The notes beneath the pieces are model-generated. The model saw only the letters and a program-made list of their open reading frames with translations, had not been told where the DNA came from and made no database searches. Shown in pieces: positions 35,825 through 48,076 of a stretch of DNA of 64,000 nt. The position numbers and the translations under genes are program-made. This DNA is from Pedobacter frigiditerrae (lineage in GTDB: Bacteria; Bacteroidota; Bacteroidia; Sphingobacteriales; Sphingobacteriaceae): positions 744,001-808,000 of the forward strand of contig NZ_SJSK01000001.1 in the NCBI RefSeq assembly GCF_004331645.1. Direction: 5' to 3'. Every line of letters begins with the position of its first letter. Position 1 is the stretch's first letter.

Positions 35825-38185
35825 ATGAAAAAATTAGCACTTCTTTTGTTTTTAGTCTCTATTTATTTATCAGGTTATGCCCAAACCCAAACAACATATG
35901 CTTGCCCAATGCATCCAGAAGTTAAAGATGATAAACCAAGTAAATGTCCCAAATGCGGAATGAAGCTAGTTGAGGTTAAATCGAAGTCTAAACAAGCTAA
36001 TCCTGCTCCAGGTGCAAACCAAAAACCTCTTCAGGTTTCAACAAGCAAAGTTGTGCCAAAAACAGTTCGATATGATTTATATGTTCGAGATACCACAGTA
36101 AATTTTACTGGAAAACAAAAAAGAGCTATTGCTGTAAATGGACAGATACCAATGCCAACATTAACATTTACAGAAGGCGATACAGCAGAAATATATGTAC
36201 ATAATGAGTTAAATGAAGAAACATCTTTGCATTGGCATGGTCTATTTGTGCCAAATAAATATGACGGTGTGCCTAACTTAACTCAAATGCCAATAAAGCC
36301 ACATACCACACATTTATATAAATTTCCAATTATACAAAGTGGAACGCATTGGTACCATAGCCACACAGGTTTGCAAGAGCAAATTGGCATGTATGGGTCT
36401 ATGATTTTAAATAAAAGAGCTGAGCCCACAATTCCAACAATACCTGTTATTTTGAGTGAGTGGGCTGATATGAATCCAAAGGAAATTGATAGAAGTTTAC
36501 ACAATGCGACAGATTGGTTTGCCATCAAAAAAGGCAGTACACAAAGTTATGCGGAAGCGATAAAAGAAGGTCATTTTAAAACAAAAATTACCAACGAGTG
36601 GAAACGTATGAATGCAATGGATGTAAGCGATGTTTATTATGATCAATTTTTGATAAATGGCAAAAATCAATTCACTGCTAAAAATTTTAAAGCAGGAGAT
36701 AAAGTAAGGTTAAGGATATCCAACGCAGGTGCTTCGTCTTATTTTTGGCTTACTTATGCTGGCGGTAAAATAACCGTTGTTGCCAATGATGGCAATGATG
36801 TGGTTCCTGTAGAAGTGGATCGATTGATGATTGCCGTCTCAGAAACCTATGATGTGATTGTTGAAATCCCAAAAAACTTGAGTTATGAGTTTTTGGTTAC
36901 ACCAGAGGATAGAACAAAATCTGCCTCATTATGGCTAGGTAATGGGATCAAAATGGCAGCACAAAAATTACCTAGGTTAGACTATTTTGAGGGGATGAAG
37001 ATGATGAATGATATGATGGAAATGAATGGCAATCTAAAGGAAATGAAGGGAATGAAAATGCAAAACCAGATCATGGATATGAATATGGTAATGTACCCTG
37101 AAATATCTGGTGATGATAATGCTAAAATGGATCATGATATGGACGGAATGGATATGACCTCAACAAAAGGAGATATTGTAACGCTAAATTACACGATGTT
37201 GAGAGCCCCAAAAAGTACAGTTTTACCTAATGGACCAATTAAGGAATTGAAGTTTGACCTAACTGGGAATATGAACAGGTATGTTTGGACTTTAGATAAT
37301 AAAACTGTTTCAGAGACTGATAAAATCTTAATAAAAAAAGGAGAAAATGTTAGGGTGATACTTTACAACAATAGCATGATGAGGCATCCAATGCATTTGC
37401 ATGGACATGATTTTAGATTAGTAGGGAAACAAGGCGATTTTGCCCCGTTAAAAAACGTGTTAGACATTATGCCAATGGAAAGGGATACCTTGGAGTTTGC
37501 CGCTACAGAAAGTGGAGATTGGTTTTTTCATTGCCACATTTTGTATCACATGATGAGCGGAATGGGCAGAGTTTTTAGCTATGAAAATTCGCCAGCAAAT
37601 CCAGAAATACCAAATCCGAAATTAGCACAAAGAAAATTATTTGCCGATGATAGAATGTTTCATTTTATGGCCGAAAATGATTTTGCAAGTAACGGAAACG
37701 ACGGTATGGCCATGTTTGCCAATACTCGGTGGAGCATAGGAACTGAATGGCGCTTAGGTTATAACAAAATGCATGGTTTTGAAACTGAAACCCATATTGG
37801 AAGATACATTGGCAAAATGCAATGGTTGATGCCTTTTGTTGGATTTGATTGGCGTTATAGAAAAATGGGTATGGATGAACAAGAAAGGAATATTTTCGGT
37901 CAAACCAACACCAAAGATAACAGGACAGTTGTAAGTATAGGAGCAGAATATACCTTGCCCATGCTAGTTAAGGCACAAGCTGAAGTTTATAATGACGGTA
38001 TTATAAGACTGCAATTGATGAGGGAAGACATTCCTATTTCAAAAAGATTGCGAATGAGTTTTATGGTAAATACTGATAAAGAATATATGAGCGGTTTTAA
38101 ATACATCGCGAATAAATACTTCTCGTTAACAACCCATTATGATAGCGACATGGGTTTTGGAGTAGGCTTTTCTCTTAATTATTAA
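35825..38185 (+). CDS. Multicopper oxidase with N-terminal metal-binding motif and C-terminal CopB-like barrel
   Basis: The 786-residue protein has a signal peptide (to SGYAQ) and an HMBD motif (YACPMHPEV...CPKCGMKL, about residues 22-48). Three cupredoxin domains carry all copper ligands: HWH 136-138, HWYHSH 175-180, HPMHLHGH 521-528 and HCHILYHMMSGM 569-580. A Met-rich insert lies near 390-450. After residue about 620 the chain resembles the outer-membrane protein CopB (WSIGTEWRLGYNK, TETHIGRY, FVGFDWRYRK, GVGFSLNY). It probably oxidises Cu(I) in the periplasm at the outer membrane. Normal CopA-type oxidases stop near 600 residues. Confidence 0.88.
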   Translation: MKKLALLLFLVSIYLSGYAQTQTTYACPMHPEVKDDKPSKCPKCGMKLVEVKSKSKQANPAPGANQKPLQVSTSKVVPKTVRYDLYVRDTTVNFTGKQKRAIAVNGQIPMPTLTFTEGDTAEIYVHNELNEETSLHWHGLFVPNKYDGVPNLTQMPIKPHTTHLYKFPIIQSGTHWYHSHTGLQEQIGMYGSMILNKRAEPTIPTIPVILSEWADMNPKEIDRSLHNATDWFAIKKGSTQSYAEAIKEGHFKTKITNEWKRMNAMDVSDVYYDQFLINGKNQFTAKNFKAGDKVRLRISNAGASSYFWLTYAGGKITVVANDGNDVVPVEVDRLMIAVSETYDVIVEIPKNLSYEFLVTPEDRTKSASLWLGNGIKMAAQKLPRLDYFEGMKMMNDMMEMNGNLKEMKGMKMQNQIMDMNMVMYPEISGDDNAKMDHDMDGMDMTSTKGDIVTLNYTMLRAPKSTVLPNGPIKELKFDLTGNMNRYVWTLDNKTVSETDKILIKKGENVRVILYNNSMMRHPMHLHGHDFRLVGKQGDFAPLKNVLDIMPMERDTLEFAATESGDWFFHCHILYHMMSGMGRVFSYENSPANPEIPNPKLAQRKLFADDRMFHFMAENDFASNGNDGMAMFANTRWSIGTEWRLGYNKMHGFETETHIGRYIGKMQWLMPFVGFDWRYRKMGMDEQERNIFGQTNTKDNRTVVSIGAEYTLPMLVKAQAEVYNDGIIRLQLMREDIPISKRLRMSFMVNTDKEYMSGFKYIANKYFSLTTHYDSDMGFGVGFSLNY

Positions 38186-40843: not shown

Positions 40844-42073
40844 ATGATAAAGAAGATATTTTTGGTTTTAATTTTAGTCAACTTATTTAGCAATGCTGAT
40901 GCACAGAAAACAGCAGTTAAAAAGGTAAAAGAAGAACCTTTTGTGGCTAAAGTTTTGGTAATTGGAAATGGGAATGCGGCACTTGCTGCAGCGGTACAAT
41001 CTGCTGTTTCTGGAGTCAAGACCAGCATATTACTACAAGCTGGTGGTTTTGACCTTTCACCGGTTGAAGAGGGATTGAGTTCGGGAATTCAAACCAAGTT
41101 CTTAAAAAAATATAAGGAATTCCTAATGGAAAAGGATAGTACTAAGGTTGTTCCTTTCGACAAACAGAAAGCTAATGCTTCATTAAATGTTTGGGTTGAT
41201 AGCATTAAAAATCTAAGCATCATTAAAAACGTTATGTGGGTAAAAGCCGAACGTTCAGGAAAAAATTGGGTTTTTAAATTAAGCGATGGGAGTACAATTA
41301 GGCCAAAAGTTTTAATCAATCCTGCAGATGCGAAACTGAATGAAGCTTTAAAAATAATTGCTCCGAGTGCAAATTGGAATAAACTAGATTACAACCAAAC
41401 ACTTTATAGAACAAGTGTGGCAAGTGGAAAACTAGAAAATGGGAATACAGCAACTATTTTTTCAATGTACCAGTTGCTATTGAAAGAGCAAGAAAATTTG
41501 GTTTGGATTAATGACCCGGAAAGTATGTCCTTGGGTCAAGCCGCAGGAGCGACGGCTGCTTATGCTGCGTTTTTCGACTTAAAAACATCTGAATCTAATC
41601 TCAAAAAAATTCAAGGCGAATTGATTAATTATAAATTAGATTTAATGCCGTTTGGTGATATTAAACAGCCTGATACCAATTGGAAGGCAATACAATTTGT
41701 TGGGGTTACAGGTATTTTAAAAGCAGAAATAGATGGTAAATCTGCTAAATTCTCGCCAAATAAATTGGTAACTACCGAAGAAATTAGACAACCCATAAAA
41801 GACTTTTATTACAAGGCTCAAATTTGGTTCGATGATTATAAAAACTCGATAATGACTATCGGCTCGTCTTTAGATATGATCAGTTACGTTGGAAATAAAT
41901 CTTTAGAATCTATGAAAAAGGAGATTCCTAAAAAGTGGAAAACATCTTATCAGTTTAAAACAGAATTTGATTTAGAGCGACAGATTAACAGAAGGGAGCT
42001 CGCTGTTTTATTACAAGATTATATGCCGCCCTTTAATGTGAATGTTGATGAAAAAGGTAAGGTCGTTAGATAA
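40844..42073 (+). CDS. Exported protein with degenerate FAD/Rossmann N-terminus
   Basis: The 409-residue protein has a signal peptide (MIKKIFLVLILVNLFSNADAQ) followed by a dinucleotide-binding-like strand-turn-helix, VLVIGNGNAALAAAVQSA at 38-53. The third Gly of GxGxxG is Ala (GNGNAA). The middle repeats the layout of FAD-dependent oxidoreductases such as the 'xanthan lyase'-annotated Bacteroidetes group (SLGQAAGATAAYAAFFD near 229). An exported FAD-fold protein with an altered nucleotide loop may be non-catalytic. The function is unknown. Confidence 0.65.
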   Translation: MIKKIFLVLILVNLFSNADAQKTAVKKVKEEPFVAKVLVIGNGNAALAAAVQSAVSGVKTSILLQAGGFDLSPVEEGLSSGIQTKFLKKYKEFLMEKDSTKVVPFDKQKANASLNVWVDSIKNLSIIKNVMWVKAERSGKNWVFKLSDGSTIRPKVLINPADAKLNEALKIIAPSANWNKLDYNQTLYRTSVASGKLENGNTATIFSMYQLLLKEQENLVWINDPESMSLGQAAGATAAYAAFFDLKTSESNLKKIQGELINYKLDLMPFGDIKQPDTNWKAIQFVGVTGILKAEIDGKSAKFSPNKLVTTEEIRQPIKDFYYKAQIWFDDYKNSIMTIGSSLDMISYVGNKSLESMKKEIPKKWKTSYQFKTEFDLERQINRRELAVLLQDYMPPFNVNVDEKGKVVR

Positions 42074-42265: not shown

Positions 42266-43909
42266 ATGAAGAAATTATACCTTTTTAACCTGTTTTTTCT
42301 GCTATTGCTATGCAATTCCTTCGCGCAAAATCAACAGGATTACAGCAACAATGCCAAATTAGCCCAAAGGGTTAAAGCACTTGCAGACAAATATCCCCAA
42401 TTAGTTAAATCGAAAACCTTAACGCAAACAGTTGGCGGAAAAGACATTTTAATGTTAACCATCGGCTCTGGCAAAACAGAACAAAAACCAGCAATTGTTG
42501 TGGTTGGTGGCGTAGAAGGTAAACATCTTTTGGGTGTAGAAATGGCGATTGGTTTTGCAGAAAAACTAATGGCATCATCATCTACAGATAGTATTAAAAC
42601 ATTGTTAAACAAACAAACTTTCTATGTTTTCCCGAACATGAGTCCAGATGCTACAGAGCAATATTTTGCAAAAGTGAGATCTGAGAGAAGTGGTAATGCA
42701 ACCAAAACCGACGACGATAGAGATGGGAAGTTAAACGAAGATGATGTTGATGACTTAGATGGAAACGGAAAAATCACAATGATGAGAATCGTGGACCCAA
42801 CAGGAAAGTATAAATTAAATACTGACGACCCTCGTTCTTTATTAGTCGCTGATTTTACCAAAGGTGAAACAGGAAAATACATTTTATTGCCAGAAGGAAT
42901 TGATAATGATAAGGATGGCGAGTTTAACGAAGATGGAGAAGGCGGGATAAGTTTCAATAAAAATTCTAGCTATAATTTTAAACCATTTGTTTCAGGAGCG
43001 GGAGAATATGCAGTTTCAGAAAAAGAAAATAGAGCATTATTTGATTTCTTATATGATGCCTTTAACGTTTATGCCGTTGTAACTTTCGGCCCAACAAATA
43101 ACTTGTCAACGCCAGTTACATTTAATCCAATGGCGCTAACTAAAAGAATAATTACGGGTTGGTATGAGGCGGATGTTAAAGCAAATGCATTAGTTTCTGA
43201 AAGATACAACAAGATTACCAAAACAAAGGATGCTCCAAAAACACAAGCAGAAAGTGGAGATTTTTCTCAATGGGGATATTTTCACTATGGTCGTTTAAGT
43301 TTTAGCACACCGGGTTGGTGGGTTCCTAAAGTTGTTCCCGATTCCGCTCGTAAAGAGAAGAAATTTGTAAATGAAGACCCAATTGCTTCTTATTTGAGAT
43401 GGGCAACAAGCCAAGGAATTACCAATACTTTTACACCGTGGAAAGCAGTAACTCATCCAGATTTTCCTGGACAAACTGTAGAAGTTGGTGGAGTTGACCC
43501 ATTTGTGTTAATCAACCCGCCTTATAAATTGGTAGATGGAATTGTGGCAAAACATACAGATTTTGTGGTGAGCTTGGCAGCAATGGCACCTCAAATAGAT
43601 TTCATTAATTTGAAGACAGAAAAAGTAGCGGATGGATTAACACGCGTTACACTCAGCGTATTAAATACAGGAGATTTGTCTACTTATACCAAAATTGGCG
43701 ATAGAAGTTATTTCTTGAAAAAGATTGTAGTTAAAGTGAATACAAATGCTAATCAAACTGTTGTTAGCGGACGAAAAAACCAATCGTTAGAAAGTATTCA
43801 GGGTAAGGAATACAAAGAATTAACATGGTTGATAAAAGGTAGCGGTAAAGTAACGATCGATGCAGCTAGCCCAACTACAGGAAGTAAATCAATCGAGGTA
43901 TCACTATAA
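42266..43909 (+). CDS. M14 carboxypeptidase-like protein lacking catalytic residues
   Basis: The 547-residue protein has a signal peptide (MKKLYLFNLFFLLLLCNSFAQ). It aligns by eye with the next gene through most of its length but lacks the M14 active site. Where the neighbour has HxxE it has ExxH (GVEGKH, Glu84/His87). The third zinc His is replaced (VTFGPTNN near 274), and the catalytic Glu is replaced by FSTPGWW near 348. Two Ca-loop-like inserts (DDDRDGKLNEDD and DNDKDGEFNEDG) are kept. The start at 42266 is preferred over 42203 because it gives the leader. It is likely a pseudo-enzyme or a binding partner of the paralog. Confidence 0.85.
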   Translation: MKKLYLFNLFFLLLLCNSFAQNQQDYSNNAKLAQRVKALADKYPQLVKSKTLTQTVGGKDILMLTIGSGKTEQKPAIVVVGGVEGKHLLGVEMAIGFAEKLMASSSTDSIKTLLNKQTFYVFPNMSPDATEQYFAKVRSERSGNATKTDDDRDGKLNEDDVDDLDGNGKITMMRIVDPTGKYKLNTDDPRSLLVADFTKGETGKYILLPEGIDNDKDGEFNEDGEGGISFNKNSSYNFKPFVSGAGEYAVSEKENRALFDFLYDAFNVYAVVTFGPTNNLSTPVTFNPMALTKRIITGWYEADVKANALVSERYNKITKTKDAPKTQAESGDFSQWGYFHYGRLSFSTPGWWVPKVVPDSARKEKKFVNEDPIASYLRWATSQGITNTFTPWKAVTHPDFPGQTVEVGGVDPFVLINPPYKLVDGIVAKHTDFVVSLAAMAPQIDFINLKTEKVADGLTRVTLSVLNTGDLSTYTKIGDRSYFLKKIVVKVNTNANQTVVSGRKNQSLESIQGKEYKELTWLIKGSGKVTIDAASPTTGSKSIEVSL

Positions 43910-43924
43910 AAATCAGAAAAGACG

Positions 43925-45655
43925 ATGAAAATTAAACATACAATTCTTCTGGTTGCATTTATTTTGTGTGCCGGAATTTTAAAAGCCCAACAGCCCGAAA
44001 ATATTTTAGCAGCGGTTGGCACACCTCCAAATCCGAAGGTTCAAGTAAGCTGGAATAGATATAACGACCACGCCGCAATAACAGACATTTGCAAAAAATT
44101 AGCTGCGGCTCATCCCAATTTGGTAAAACTTGAATCAATGGGAAAATCCTTTAAAGGGAAAGAGCTTTGGGTAATGACCATTACAGATTCAAAAGTTGGC
44201 AGCGGCGATAAAAAACCCGCTATGTACATTGATGGAAATATCCACTCCAATGAAATTCAAGGTAGTGAGTTTGCTTTATACACCGCTTGGTATTTGGCAG
44301 AAATGTACGCTTCTGGCAATAAAGCAATCATGTCTTTACTGGCGGATAAAACTTTTTATATCGCTCCAACTATCAATCCTGATGCGAGAGATAATTTTAT
44401 TCATCAAGCAAACACCGCACATTCTCCACGAACAGGTTTAATTCCTATCGACAATGACCGTGATGGGACAACAAATGAAGATGGTTTTGATGATTTAGAT
44501 AACGATGGGCAAATTGTAATGATGCGTCGCAAAAGTGTAACTGGTCGTTATAAAGTTGATCCAACCGATAACAGAAGAATGATTTTGGTGAGCGGAGAAG
44601 AAAAGGGAGAATACGAACTTTTGGGCAGCGAAGGAATTGATAATGACGGAGACGGATTTGTAAACGAAGATGGTGAAGGTGCTTATGACCCGAACCGTGA
44701 TTGGGGATGGAACTGGCAACCAAATTACATTCAAGGAGGTGCTTATAAATACCCTTTTTCAATTCCAGAAAACAGAGCGATTGTAGATTTTGTGATGAAA
44801 CATCCTAACATCGCGGCAGCACAATCTTACCACAATAATGGGGGTATGATTTTAAGAGGTCCGGGAGCTTTAGAAGATTTGGATACTTACAATGCGTTAG
44901 ATATTAGAGTTTATGATGCATTAGGTAAAAAAGGTGAAGAAATGCTGCCGGGATATAAATACTTAGTTGTTTATAAAGATTTATATTCTGTTTTTGGGGG
45001 AGAGTTAGATTGGTTTTACGGCGGTAGAGGAATTTATACTTTCTCTAACGAGTTATGGACTGGTTATTCGATGTACAATAAAACTGATGGAGAAGACAGC
45101 CAAACGCAATTATACACTTTCGATAAGGATTTGTTAATGAAAGATGCTTTTGTTGATTGGCATCCTTTTAAACATCCAACTTACGGCGATATAGAGATTG
45201 GTGGTTTCAAGAAAACTTACACTCGTTTACACCCAGGCTTTTTGCTAGAAAGCGATGCGCATCGTAACATGGCTTTCAGTGTTTACCACGCTTACAACAC
45301 GCCAAAATTGTCTGTTGGAGAAATTGAAGTAAAAGATATTGGTGGGTTAACACAGGTTACGGCAATTATCAATAACGAAAGAATGATTCCAACACACTCT
45401 AGTCAGGATGTGAAAAATAACATAGAAACTCCAGATATTATTTCTTTAACTGGCGGAACCGTTGTTGCCGGAATGATTGTAACTAATCGTGATATGAATT
45501 TTACCGTTGAACAAAATAGAGACCCGGCAAATATTAAGGTTCAAAATATCCCTGGAAACTCTTTTGTAACTGTTCGTTGGTTAGTAAAAGGTGGAAGTAA
45601 GTTCACTGTTAATGTGAGTAGTAAAAAAGGTGGTTTAGCCAGTAAATCTAATTAA
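43925..45655 (+). CDS. M14 zinc carboxypeptidase with calcium-loop insert
   Basis: The 576-residue secreted peptidase has a signal peptide to LKAQQ. The M14 zinc site is complete: HSNE (His107, Glu110), His303 in AQSYHNNGG, and the catalytic Glu376 in FSNELW. An insert carries EF-hand-like Asp-rich loops (DNDRDGTTNEDGFDDLDNDG near 177-195 and DNDGDGFVNEDGEG near 239-252), which suggests calcium stabilisation. The C-terminal domain after about 440 is beta-sandwich-like. It lies fifteen bases after the degenerate paralog and nine bases before the S9 peptidase. Confidence 0.92.
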   Translation: MKIKHTILLVAFILCAGILKAQQPENILAAVGTPPNPKVQVSWNRYNDHAAITDICKKLAAAHPNLVKLESMGKSFKGKELWVMTITDSKVGSGDKKPAMYIDGNIHSNEIQGSEFALYTAWYLAEMYASGNKAIMSLLADKTFYIAPTINPDARDNFIHQANTAHSPRTGLIPIDNDRDGTTNEDGFDDLDNDGQIVMMRRKSVTGRYKVDPTDNRRMILVSGEEKGEYELLGSEGIDNDGDGFVNEDGEGAYDPNRDWGWNWQPNYIQGGAYKYPFSIPENRAIVDFVMKHPNIAAAQSYHNNGGMILRGPGALEDLDTYNALDIRVYDALGKKGEEMLPGYKYLVVYKDLYSVFGGELDWFYGGRGIYTFSNELWTGYSMYNKTDGEDSQTQLYTFDKDLLMKDAFVDWHPFKHPTYGDIEIGGFKKTYTRLHPGFLLESDAHRNMAFSVYHAYNTPKLSVGEIEVKDIGGLTQVTAIINNERMIPTHSSQDVKNNIETPDIISLTGGTVVAGMIVTNRDMNFTVEQNRDPANIKVQNIPGNSFVTVRWLVKGGSKFTVNVSSKKGGLASKSN

Positions 45656-45664
45656 TAAAATAAA

Positions 45665-48076
45665 ATGAAAAAATATCTAGTTTTCTTTCTCTTTCTATCA
45701 GCTGCTGCACAAGCACAGCAAGTTGCTCCGTTAACGGTTCAAAAAATAATGAGAGACCCAAAATGGATGGGCGTTGCCCCAACAAATTACCGTTGGTCTG
45801 ACGATAGCAAAACCATTTTTTTTAGCTGGAATCCAGAAAATAAAGAAAAGGATCAAGCCTATAAAGTAAGCGTATTAACCAATAAACCAGAAACTACTGA
45901 AGACAATGCTGCTGAAAAAGCTGCTGGTACAGTTTATACTTACAACAAAGACAAATCTTTAGGTTTATTTGAAAAGGGTGGTGATGTTTATTTGTACAAC
46001 TTCGAACAGAAAAAAGAAACAAGGTTAACCAACACCGTAGACCGCGAAAACGGCACAAAATTTTTGTACAATAACGATGTTATTTTTCAGCGTGGCGATA
46101 ACTTATTTCAATTGAGTTTGTCAACTAGCGAGACTAAACAATTAACAAATTTTGTAAAAGGAAAAAGACCAGGTTTGGGCGGGCCAACCGTTCCTGGAGC
46201 TCCAGAAAGAGTTGCGCCAACAGTTCAAGATACTTGGTTAAAAACGGACCAAACAGAACTATTTGACATCATTAAAAAACGTAATAAAACAGGAGGAAGG
46301 GGACAGGGTTTTGCAGGAGCGGCTGGTGGTCGTCGTTTTGGTTTTGGCAGTGCAGATGCCAACTTTAAAACTATAAAGGCAATTTATTTAGACGATAAAT
46401 TTCTATCTGGTTTAACCGTTAGTCCAGATGGTAGGTTTGTTACTTATCGTTTAACAAGTCCAGTTACTACAAATCATAACACCATTGTTCCAAACTATGT
46501 AACGGCTTCTGGTTATACTGAAGACATTGCTGGTCGTACTAAGGTTGGTGAAACATTAACGGTTTCAGAGAGCTTTATTTATGATGGTACAAAAGACAGC
46601 GTTTATACGGTTCATACTTCTCAAATCCCAGGTATAAAAGATTTGCCAGATTATGTAAAAGATTATCCTAAACAACTAGAAGAGAGAACTAAGAAAAACG
46701 AAGACCGTAAAATCAATTTTGGTTCGCCAATTTGGAATGAAAATGGTACAACAGCTATCATCACCGCAGATGCAAACGATAACAAAGATTTATGGATTTT
46801 AAAGTTAGATGCTAATACGGGGAATGTAAGTATTTTAGACCGTCAACGTGATGAGGCTTGGATAGGCGGACCAGGTGTTGGGCGTAACATAGAATGGATT
46901 GATAACAACCGTTTTTATTTCCAAAGTGAAGCAACGGGTTATTCTCATTTGTATACATATAACATAACTAATGGGGAGAAAAAACAATTGACTAGTGGTA
47001 AATGGGAAGTTCAAAGAGCAATTTTATCTAAAGACAAAACTACTTTTTACATCAGTGGAAATAAGGAACATCCTGGTATTACGCACTTTTATAAGCTAAG
47101 CGTAAATGGTGGCGATTTAGTTCAAATTACAGCAATGAAAGGTGGAAATGAAATTACCATGTCTCCAGACGAAAAATGGTTAGCCATCAATTATTCATAT
47201 ATGGACAAACCTTGGGAGCTTTATATTCAAGCGAATAAACCAGGAGCTAAAGCAGTTCAGATTACCAAATCAACTTCGGCAGAATTTGATAGCTACAAAT
47301 GGCGCCAACCAGATTTGGTTTCATTTAAAAACAGATATGGCGATGATGTGTATGCAAGAGTTTATCCGGCAGCAAATCCACACCCAAATAAACCTGCTGT
47401 AGTTTTTGTACATGGGGCTGGTTATTTACAAAACGTTCATTATTGGTGGAGCCAATATTTTAGAGAATACATGTTCAATAATATGTTAGCAGATAATGGC
47501 TATACTGTTATCGATATCGACTACACGGCAAGCTCTGGTTATGGTAGAAATCACCGTACGGGAATTTATAGGAATATGGGCGGTAAAGATTTAACAGACC
47601 AAGTAGATGGCGTTAAAATGTTGGTAGAGAAGTATGGGGTGAATCCTAAACATATTGGTCTGTATGGCGGCTCTTACGGAGGTTTTATCACCTTGATGGG
47701 ATTGTTTAAGGAACCAGAAGTTTTTGCAGCTGGGGCGGCTTTACGTTCGGTTACAGATTGGGCGCATTATAACCACGGCTACACGGCTAATATTTTAAAT
47801 GAACCTTACAATGACCCAATCGCTTATAAGCGCAGCTCGCCTATTTATTATGCCGATAAATTAAAAGGGAACTTAGTGATGTTGCATGGAATGGTAGATG
47901 TAAATGTTCACTTCCAAGACATCGTACGTTTAACACAACGTTTCATAGAGCTTGGAAAAGATAATTGGGAGCTAGCGGTTTATCCTGTAGAAGACCACGG
48001 CTTTGTAGAGCCAAGCAGCTGGACTGATGAATACAAACGTATTTTTAAAATCTTCGAAACCACTTTGAAGAAATAG
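45665..48076 (+). CDS. S9 family prolyl-oligopeptidase / DPP-IV-like peptidase
   Basis: The 803-residue exported serine peptidase has a signal peptide (MKKYLVFFLFLSAAAQAQQ), an N-terminal beta-propeller of YXXD/TLYW-type repeats, and a C-terminal alpha/beta-hydrolase domain. The catalytic triad is Ser670 (GLYGGSYGG), Asp745 (GMVDVNVH) and His778 (VEDHGF). It probably removes dipeptides from oligopeptides outside the cytosol. With the M14 pair upstream, it makes a three-gene peptide-degrading operon. Confidence 0.94.
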   Translation: MKKYLVFFLFLSAAAQAQQVAPLTVQKIMRDPKWMGVAPTNYRWSDDSKTIFFSWNPENKEKDQAYKVSVLTNKPETTEDNAAEKAAGTVYTYNKDKSLGLFEKGGDVYLYNFEQKKETRLTNTVDRENGTKFLYNNDVIFQRGDNLFQLSLSTSETKQLTNFVKGKRPGLGGPTVPGAPERVAPTVQDTWLKTDQTELFDIIKKRNKTGGRGQGFAGAAGGRRFGFGSADANFKTIKAIYLDDKFLSGLTVSPDGRFVTYRLTSPVTTNHNTIVPNYVTASGYTEDIAGRTKVGETLTVSESFIYDGTKDSVYTVHTSQIPGIKDLPDYVKDYPKQLEERTKKNEDRKINFGSPIWNENGTTAIITADANDNKDLWILKLDANTGNVSILDRQRDEAWIGGPGVGRNIEWIDNNRFYFQSEATGYSHLYTYNITNGEKKQLTSGKWEVQRAILSKDKTTFYISGNKEHPGITHFYKLSVNGGDLVQITAMKGGNEITMSPDEKWLAINYSYMDKPWELYIQANKPGAKAVQITKSTSAEFDSYKWRQPDLVSFKNRYGDDVYARVYPAANPHPNKPAVVFVHGAGYLQNVHYWWSQYFREYMFNNMLADNGYTVIDIDYTASSGYGRNHRTGIYRNMGGKDLTDQVDGVKMLVEKYGVNPKHIGLYGGSYGGFITLMGLFKEPEVFAAGAALRSVTDWAHYNHGYTANILNEPYNDPIAYKRSSPIYYADKLKGNLVMLHGMVDVNVHFQDIVRLTQRFIELGKDNWELAVYPVEDHGFVEPSSWTDEYKRIFKIFETTLKK

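Follow-up and report, generated by a model that had tools for sequence, protein, structure and literature searches.

A predicted zinc-free M14 pseudopeptidase encoded beside a predicted active carboxypeptidase in Pedobacter frigiditerrae and other Bacteroidota

The 64,000 bp window analysed here, from Pedobacter frigiditerrae (positions 744,001 to 808,000 of contig NZ_SJSK01000001.1, assembly GCF_004331645.1), contains two M14 carboxypeptidase-family genes that lie 15 bases apart on one strand. The product of the first, designated PS, has lost every zinc ligand and the catalytic Glu of the family, while the product of the second, designated AC, retains them all. PS has an intact predicted fold and is under purifying selection, and in many Bacteroidota the two genes occur together in the same order and have diverged in parallel. 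PS is probably a zinc-free M14 pseudopeptidase that serves as a dedicated partner of the adjacent active AC, binding or presenting the C-termini of peptides.

Peptidase_M14 (PF00246) is the sole Pfam match for PS and likewise for AC, with PS scoring 65.8 bits against a cut-off of 21.6, and a search with PS as query returned PS and AC as the only two matches in the genome that includes the window. The NCBIfam search assigned no family to either protein. The two share 30% identity in a MAFFT alignment, and each has an N-terminus that, by eye, resembles a signal peptide. Both have the same C-terminal layout and carry two acidic DxDxDG loops, as described in an earlier sequence-only reading of this stretch, which had reported two neighbouring M14 frames with common calcium-loop inserts and gave both frames and their residue numbers correctly. 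PF00246 is matched by all 46 PS proteins of alignment A3, which on the profile alone would make them zinc carboxypeptidases, a label that is misleading. PS appears to be a member of M14 by fold but, to judge by its residues, not an M14 peptidase.

Family positions are numbered here as in bovine carboxypeptidase A (CPA), and the features discussed are listed in Table 1. The MAFFT alignment bears out the earlier assignment of H107, E110, H303 and E376 as the active set of AC, and an AC profile matches each of them to its equivalent in carboxypeptidase T. It also agrees with the reported loss from PS of the third ligand, at F274-G275, and of the catalytic Glu, at T348-P349. A profile of 46 PS proteins placed on the solved carboxypeptidase T puts E84 at the zinc His and H87 at the zinc Glu of HxxE, confirming where these residues belong. 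An alternative intact HxxE set was sought, but a scan of the whole PS protein, which has four histidines, found no HxxE and a single ExxH, E84-H87; there is therefore no second HxxE set elsewhere in PS. AC holds one HxxE, the active one.

The comparison covers 128 distinct full-length PS proteins, including that of the window, and 132 AC proteins, after removal of repeats. Labels were assigned by similarity to PS or AC and not by catalytic residues. The 132 exclude seven rows that score as AC but belong to a third M14 type, and five short or divergent rows were dropped (the AC of L152, at a contig end; the two frames of the split PS of L154; a PS piece of L161, at a contig start; and the divergent M14 protein of L171). 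The zinc ligands H69, E72 and H196 and the catalytic E270 are each absent from 128/128 PS proteins. All four are kept in 130/132 AC proteins, and the two exceptions are both at position 196, with one undetermined residue and one Leu (L161). This split between dead PS and intact AC is far beyond chance, and the clear signal in PS is that no metal or catalytic position survives. From these residues, AC is predicted to be a working zinc carboxypeptidase and PS is predicted to be without zinc and without catalysis.

The sequence-only reading had treated the change of HxxE to ExxH as the key conserved difference. The change is present in the window PS and in many relatives (64 of the 128), but it does not extend to the whole family, as only 80/128 have [ED]xxH and 12/128 have KxxH. 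The position of E84 is occupied by K in those 12 proteins and by S, M, A, Q or R in 13 more, and H87 has given way to another residue in 28. As both residues vary across the family, the idea that ExxH forms a conserved metal site in PS was rejected.

An AlphaFold2 model of PS, built from the window protein and 45 relatives, has a mean predicted local distance difference test score (pLDDT) of 89.2 and a predicted template modelling score of 0.88. The nearest solved structures are metallocarboxypeptidases (best Foldseek E value 2.6e-14), and the 50 best solved structures shown are zinc carboxypeptidases. Superposition on carboxypeptidase T (6f79) with VIA-align gave a Z score of 30.5 and a root mean square deviation of 2.6 over 289 residues. 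PS is thus predicted to have a complete carboxypeptidase fold; the model of AC is poor, with a mean pLDDT of 76. PS therefore has the same domain and fold as active M14 enzymes such as carboxypeptidase T and carboxypeptidases A and B, but is without the equivalents of H69, E72, H196, Y248 and E270. These losses, together with the variable E84 and H87 positions and the exclusively zinc carboxypeptidase character of the 50 fold matches, make it very improbable that PS is still an enzyme with a site rebuilt around E84 and H87 or other residues, although the alignment of 46 PS proteins shows no variation at H340, H397 and N144, as such a rebuilt site would lead one to expect.

Pairwise Nei-Gojobori comparison of the seven Pedobacter pairs with dS below 1.2 in both PS and AC gave a median dN/dS of 0.048 for PS and 0.018 for AC, and of 0.074 and 0.040 for two neighbouring genes, FAD-like and S9 respectively (Table 1). 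PS is not a decayed copy but is under purifying selection, as had been supposed earlier from its retained length. Decay of a duplicate of AC would account for the lost active site and for the faster divergence of PS, which has a mean distance of 0.48 compared with 0.36 for AC, and the PS of locus L154 (genome G481) is indeed split over two frames. Nevertheless, full-length open frames are found in 128 distinct PS proteins and a single old origin suffices to explain the tree described below. Pseudogene decay was rejected on the dN/dS of about 0.05 and the conservation in 128 proteins, and its probability is considered negligible.

A scan of 84,980 named species genomes found relatives encoded in at least 319 stretches, and the analysis retained the best 80 of them. 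In 78 of these best 80, the gene immediately downstream of PS on the same strand is AC, and in the remaining two PS ends 247 and 20 bases before the end of the contig. Judged by title, the best 80 loci include members of the Sphingobacteriaceae, Chitinophagaceae, Cytophagales, Flavobacteriaceae, Saprospiraceae and Bacteroidales, and in the phylum sample PS and AC also occur in families outside the class. Over 78 loci the median distance from PS to AC, counted to the first ATG of the AC frame, is 13 bases, and PS comes first in 133/133 fetched loci holding both genes, some genomes having been fetched twice by different routes. PS followed by AC is a two-gene unit that is widespread in Bacteroidota, with genes for an active and a dead paralogue side by side as in M16B-like arrangements.

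Co-occurrence was examined in three samples. In Pedobacter, PS was found in 20 of 99 genomes and a full-length adjacent AC in the same 20, none having one gene alone; both are absent from the remaining 79, some of which nevertheless contain other M14 proteins with weak partial matches to AC. In the class sample, AC scored above 600 bits in 10 of 295 genomes and PS is present in all 10. A hand count of the phylum sample gave 43 genomes with a match, 36 with PS and seven without, and PS adjoins AC in 35 of the 36 (including the split PS of G481 and the cut PS of G678) and is unlinked in one. The seven without PS are G426, G490, G501, G520 and G539, which have only the third M14 type, G720, where the match is divergent, and G498, where it is at a contig start. 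The earlier suggestion that PS is a pseudo-enzyme tied to an active copy is thus upheld in 78 of the best 80 loci, in 20/20 Pedobacter genomes with either gene and in 10/10 genomes of the class sample with an AC above 600 bits. The expectation that orthologous pairs are always adjacent holds nearly throughout, failing in G276, G381 and G550, where PS and AC are both kept but on different contigs, and where no AC was found behind PS within the fetched stretch. The unlinked PS copies (L065, L067 and L163) have end branches of 2.19, 2.43 and 0.9, and those of L067 and L065 are the longest in the tree.

Some loci depart from the simple arrangement of one PS and one AC. A single PS is followed by two AC genes in L161 (G678), where PS is cut by the contig start, and in L154 (G481), where the split of PS over two frames may be a frameshift or an assembly error. 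The first AC of L161 is the one with Leu at the third zinc ligand, and may be a second pseudo-enzyme. In L140 and L148, both from Bacteroidales, one PS precedes two consecutive AC-type genes. A second, divergent PS-AC pair was found in L158 (G626) and L159 (G461), and as G461 also holds an ordinary pair, it seems that the two genes were copied or acquired together.

A quick tree built from 99 rows, with five long branches flagged, places PS and AC on opposite sides of a branch with 99% support in the Shimodaira-Hasegawa-like approximate likelihood ratio test. As PS makes up one side of this branch, a single ancient split suffices. By eye, the PS and AC halves branch in much the same way except at deeper forks, and distances among PS and among AC proteins are correlated over 94 pairs (Mantel r 0.91, with 0 of 999 permutations as high). 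Locus L064 (G138), from the same family as Pedobacter, groups with f68/Arcicella, a different family, in both halves of the tree, its PS being a long branch; this placement is as expected if the PS-AC pair moved as a unit. The third M14 type (L070, L071, L170 and L174 to L177) has the same acidic loops as PS and AC. It has H, E, Asp and Glu aligned at the zinc and catalytic positions, the alignment of the Asp being uncertain, and His at the position of N144. It forms a branch of its own (three rows in the tree) and is the only match in five genomes of the phylum sample, without PS, and for these two reasons it was set apart from AC.

In carboxypeptidases, R127, N144 and R145 grip the C-terminal carboxylate of the substrate. 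By sequence alignment, PS appears to keep these positions as R141, N231 and K232, with Lys replacing Arg, a point that had escaped the earlier reading. Both proteins are probably exported. The pattern x-x-A-Q is found near the N-terminus of 96/128 PS and 101/132 AC proteins and a lipobox-like pattern in five PS and two AC proteins; x-x-A-Q would fit exported Bacteroidetes proteins that begin with Gln (Q rule, PMC10653852). PS would then associate with AC, most likely in a heterodimer or small complex, and would bind the C-terminal end of the substrate through the kept R127/N144/R145-type residues. In doing so it would present peptides to AC or control access to AC, which would perform all of the hydrolysis. 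A partner role for PS is indicated by the fixed gene order, the co-occurrence and the retention of both genes where they are unlinked.

Two other roles were considered. PS could be an inhibitor or chaperone of AC that caps its active site or aids its folding in the manner of a propeptide, with no binding of substrate. This would suit a PS gene that is encoded first and adjoins AC at a median distance of 13 bases. It would also suit an AC whose M14 match starts near residue 46-53, seemingly too early for a complete N-terminal prodomain to precede it, when judged by the size of the prodomain that forms the propeptide of digestive procarboxypeptidases. However, inhibition alone leaves the retention of R127, N144 and R145 in about nine-tenths of PS proteins unexplained, even though that retention is not in itself significant, and this role is considered rather unlikely. 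Only marginally less doubtful is the alternative of PS as an exported binder of peptides or glycans that acts independently and has no more than its regulon in common with AC. The kept carboxylate-binding positions and the three genomes in which PS is unlinked from AC are compatible with such a protein, but the fixed order and the near-complete co-occurrence in the samples are stronger than mere co-regulation would suggest.

Several observations weigh against PS as a C-terminus-binding partner of AC. The equivalent of Y248 is lost in PS, as is R155, another arginine that is invariant in AC. AC has 82 invariant positions, of which PS keeps 40 and loses 31, and against this baseline of 40/82 the retention of the three carboxylate positions is suggestive but not significant. 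Pocket windows in PS are only mildly above the rest of the domain in conservation, and a circular-shift test of them is weakly positive, with 19, 31, 22 and 55 of 416 shifts reaching the observed value at half-widths of 0, 2, 3 and 5. The correlation between PS and AC distances would also follow from plain co-inheritance of neighbours. If the third M14 type is counted as AC, 130/139 keep all four residues and AC then occurs without PS. AC is also found without PS at a contig start in G498, and G106 (L069) has a weak AC-like frame (195.5 bits), likewise at a contig start and outside the residue set, with no PS. No PS-AC fusion was found among the open frames listed for the genus, class and phylum samples, in which a few weak-match frames of more than 1,000 aa were left unexamined.

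By its family fold, loss of essential residues and selection, PS would qualify as an M14 pseudopeptidase. A 2024 review of inactive metallopeptidases (PMC11266112) lists, as M14 pseudopeptidases, four from vertebrates and Ecm14 from yeast, and the set in its Table 2 is made up of AEBP1/ACLP, CPXM1, CPXM2, domain III of CPD and Ecm14. In that table, H69 is kept in five of five, E72 in four, H196 in two, R127 in three and R145 in none. Like PS, these are dead or presumed-dead M14 domains, and R127 is kept in three of the five, as it mostly is in PS. Otherwise, in comparison with the tabulated residues, the pattern in PS appears nearly the reverse, with no zinc ligand and with R127, N144 and R/K145 mostly kept. 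The part of the review that deals with CPD reports a suggestion that its inactive domain III presents substrates to the active domains; this domain sits beside active M14 domains in one chain, whereas PS sits beside AC as a separate gene. PS differs from the eukaryotic M14 pseudopeptidases also in being bacterial and in being encoded before its active partner.

A closer parallel in gene arrangement is found in M16B, an unrelated family with a clam-shell build and a fold different from that of PS and AC. In PMC12731061, the bacterial pairs TTHA1264/TTHA1265 and SPH2681/SPH2682 are described as heterodimers, M16B heterodimers have the HXXEH motif in one of the two chains, and the partner of TTHA1264 is the product of the neighbouring gene. 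As in the proposed PS-AC complex, active and dead genes are neighbours. It is conceivable, though on present evidence somewhat less probable than not, that PS-AC is an ancient carboxypeptidase of Bacteroidota made of two subunits, one of them an obligate, zinc-free M14 half that receives the substrate and has kept only the residues that grip the C-terminus; it would then correspond, within M14, to the active/inactive heterodimers of M16, and PS might be the first M14 pseudopeptidase family described from bacteria. No description of a bacterial M14 pseudopeptidase or of a PS-AC pair was found in the open-access literature, searched by title and the start of the abstract, subscription papers falling mostly outside this scope. 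The recurrence of a dead and a living copy in the same order in many members of the phylum suggests a working role for the dead copy as partner of the living enzyme. PS would add a bacterial family that combines a residue pattern nearly opposite to that of the reviewed pseudopeptidases with a fixed active partner, and the two-gene cassette offers a way to test how a dead enzyme serves a living relative.

Table 1. Features of the PS-AC locus and adjoining genes, with positions given within the window.
Feature	Position	Strand	Evidence
PS, M14-family pseudo-carboxypeptidase, 547 aa	42266..43909	+	Pfam PF00246, 6.3e-18
PS E84-G-K-H87, at the H69-x-x-E72 zinc motif	42515..42526	+	MAFFT: faces AC H107-S-N-E110
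PS R141, predicted R127 equivalent	42686..42688	+	Alignment and spacing; R/K in 118/128 PS
PS acidic DxDxDG loop 1 (probably binds Ca), also in AC	42710..42754	+	Listed positions 93-100% kept in PS
PS acidic DxDxDG loop 2 (probably binds Ca), also in AC	42902..42934	+	Listed positions 90-100% kept in PS
PS N231-K232, predicted N144-R145 equivalent	42956..42961	+	N in 117/128, K/R in 119/128 PS
PS F274-G275; G275 at third zinc ligand H196	43085..43090	+	MAFFT: faces AC Y302-H303
PS T348-P349; P349 at catalytic E270	43307..43312	+	MAFFT: faces AC N375-E376
AC, predicted active M14 metallocarboxypeptidase, 576 aa	43925..45655	+	Pfam PF00246, 8.1e-37; zinc ligands and catalytic Glu present
AC H107-S-N-E110 zinc motif	44243..44254	+	H and E in 132/132 AC
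AC H303, third zinc ligand	44831..44833	+	H in 130/132 AC
AC E376, catalytic Glu	45050..45052	+	E in 132/132 AC
S9/DPP IV-like peptidase, next gene after AC in Pedobacter	45665..48076	+	9 bases past AC
FAD-oxidoreductase-like protein, before PS in Pedobacter	40844..42073	+	PF12831, 22.9 bits, below cut-off of 27

The neighbours of the pair are not shared across the phylum. Clustering of neighbouring genes placed the S9 gene near PS-AC in 12 of 77 named loci and the FAD-like gene also in 12, and two opposite-strand genes each border the pair in 10 loci. A conserved operon larger than the pair was rejected, as beyond PS and AC no gene is found in more than 12 of the 77. The FAD-like gene precedes PS in most of the Pedobacter loci fetched. 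The S9 and FAD-like genes belong to Pedobacter and a few other loci and lie outside the phylum-wide PS-AC unit. The FAD-like protein has GNGNAA at the start of its nucleotide-binding region and is possibly a degenerate enzyme too. Further upstream (35825-38185), the window encodes what we take to be a multicopper-oxidase-like protein, with an N-terminal segment, YACPMHPEV...CPKCGMKL, that looks like a heavy-metal-binding domain.

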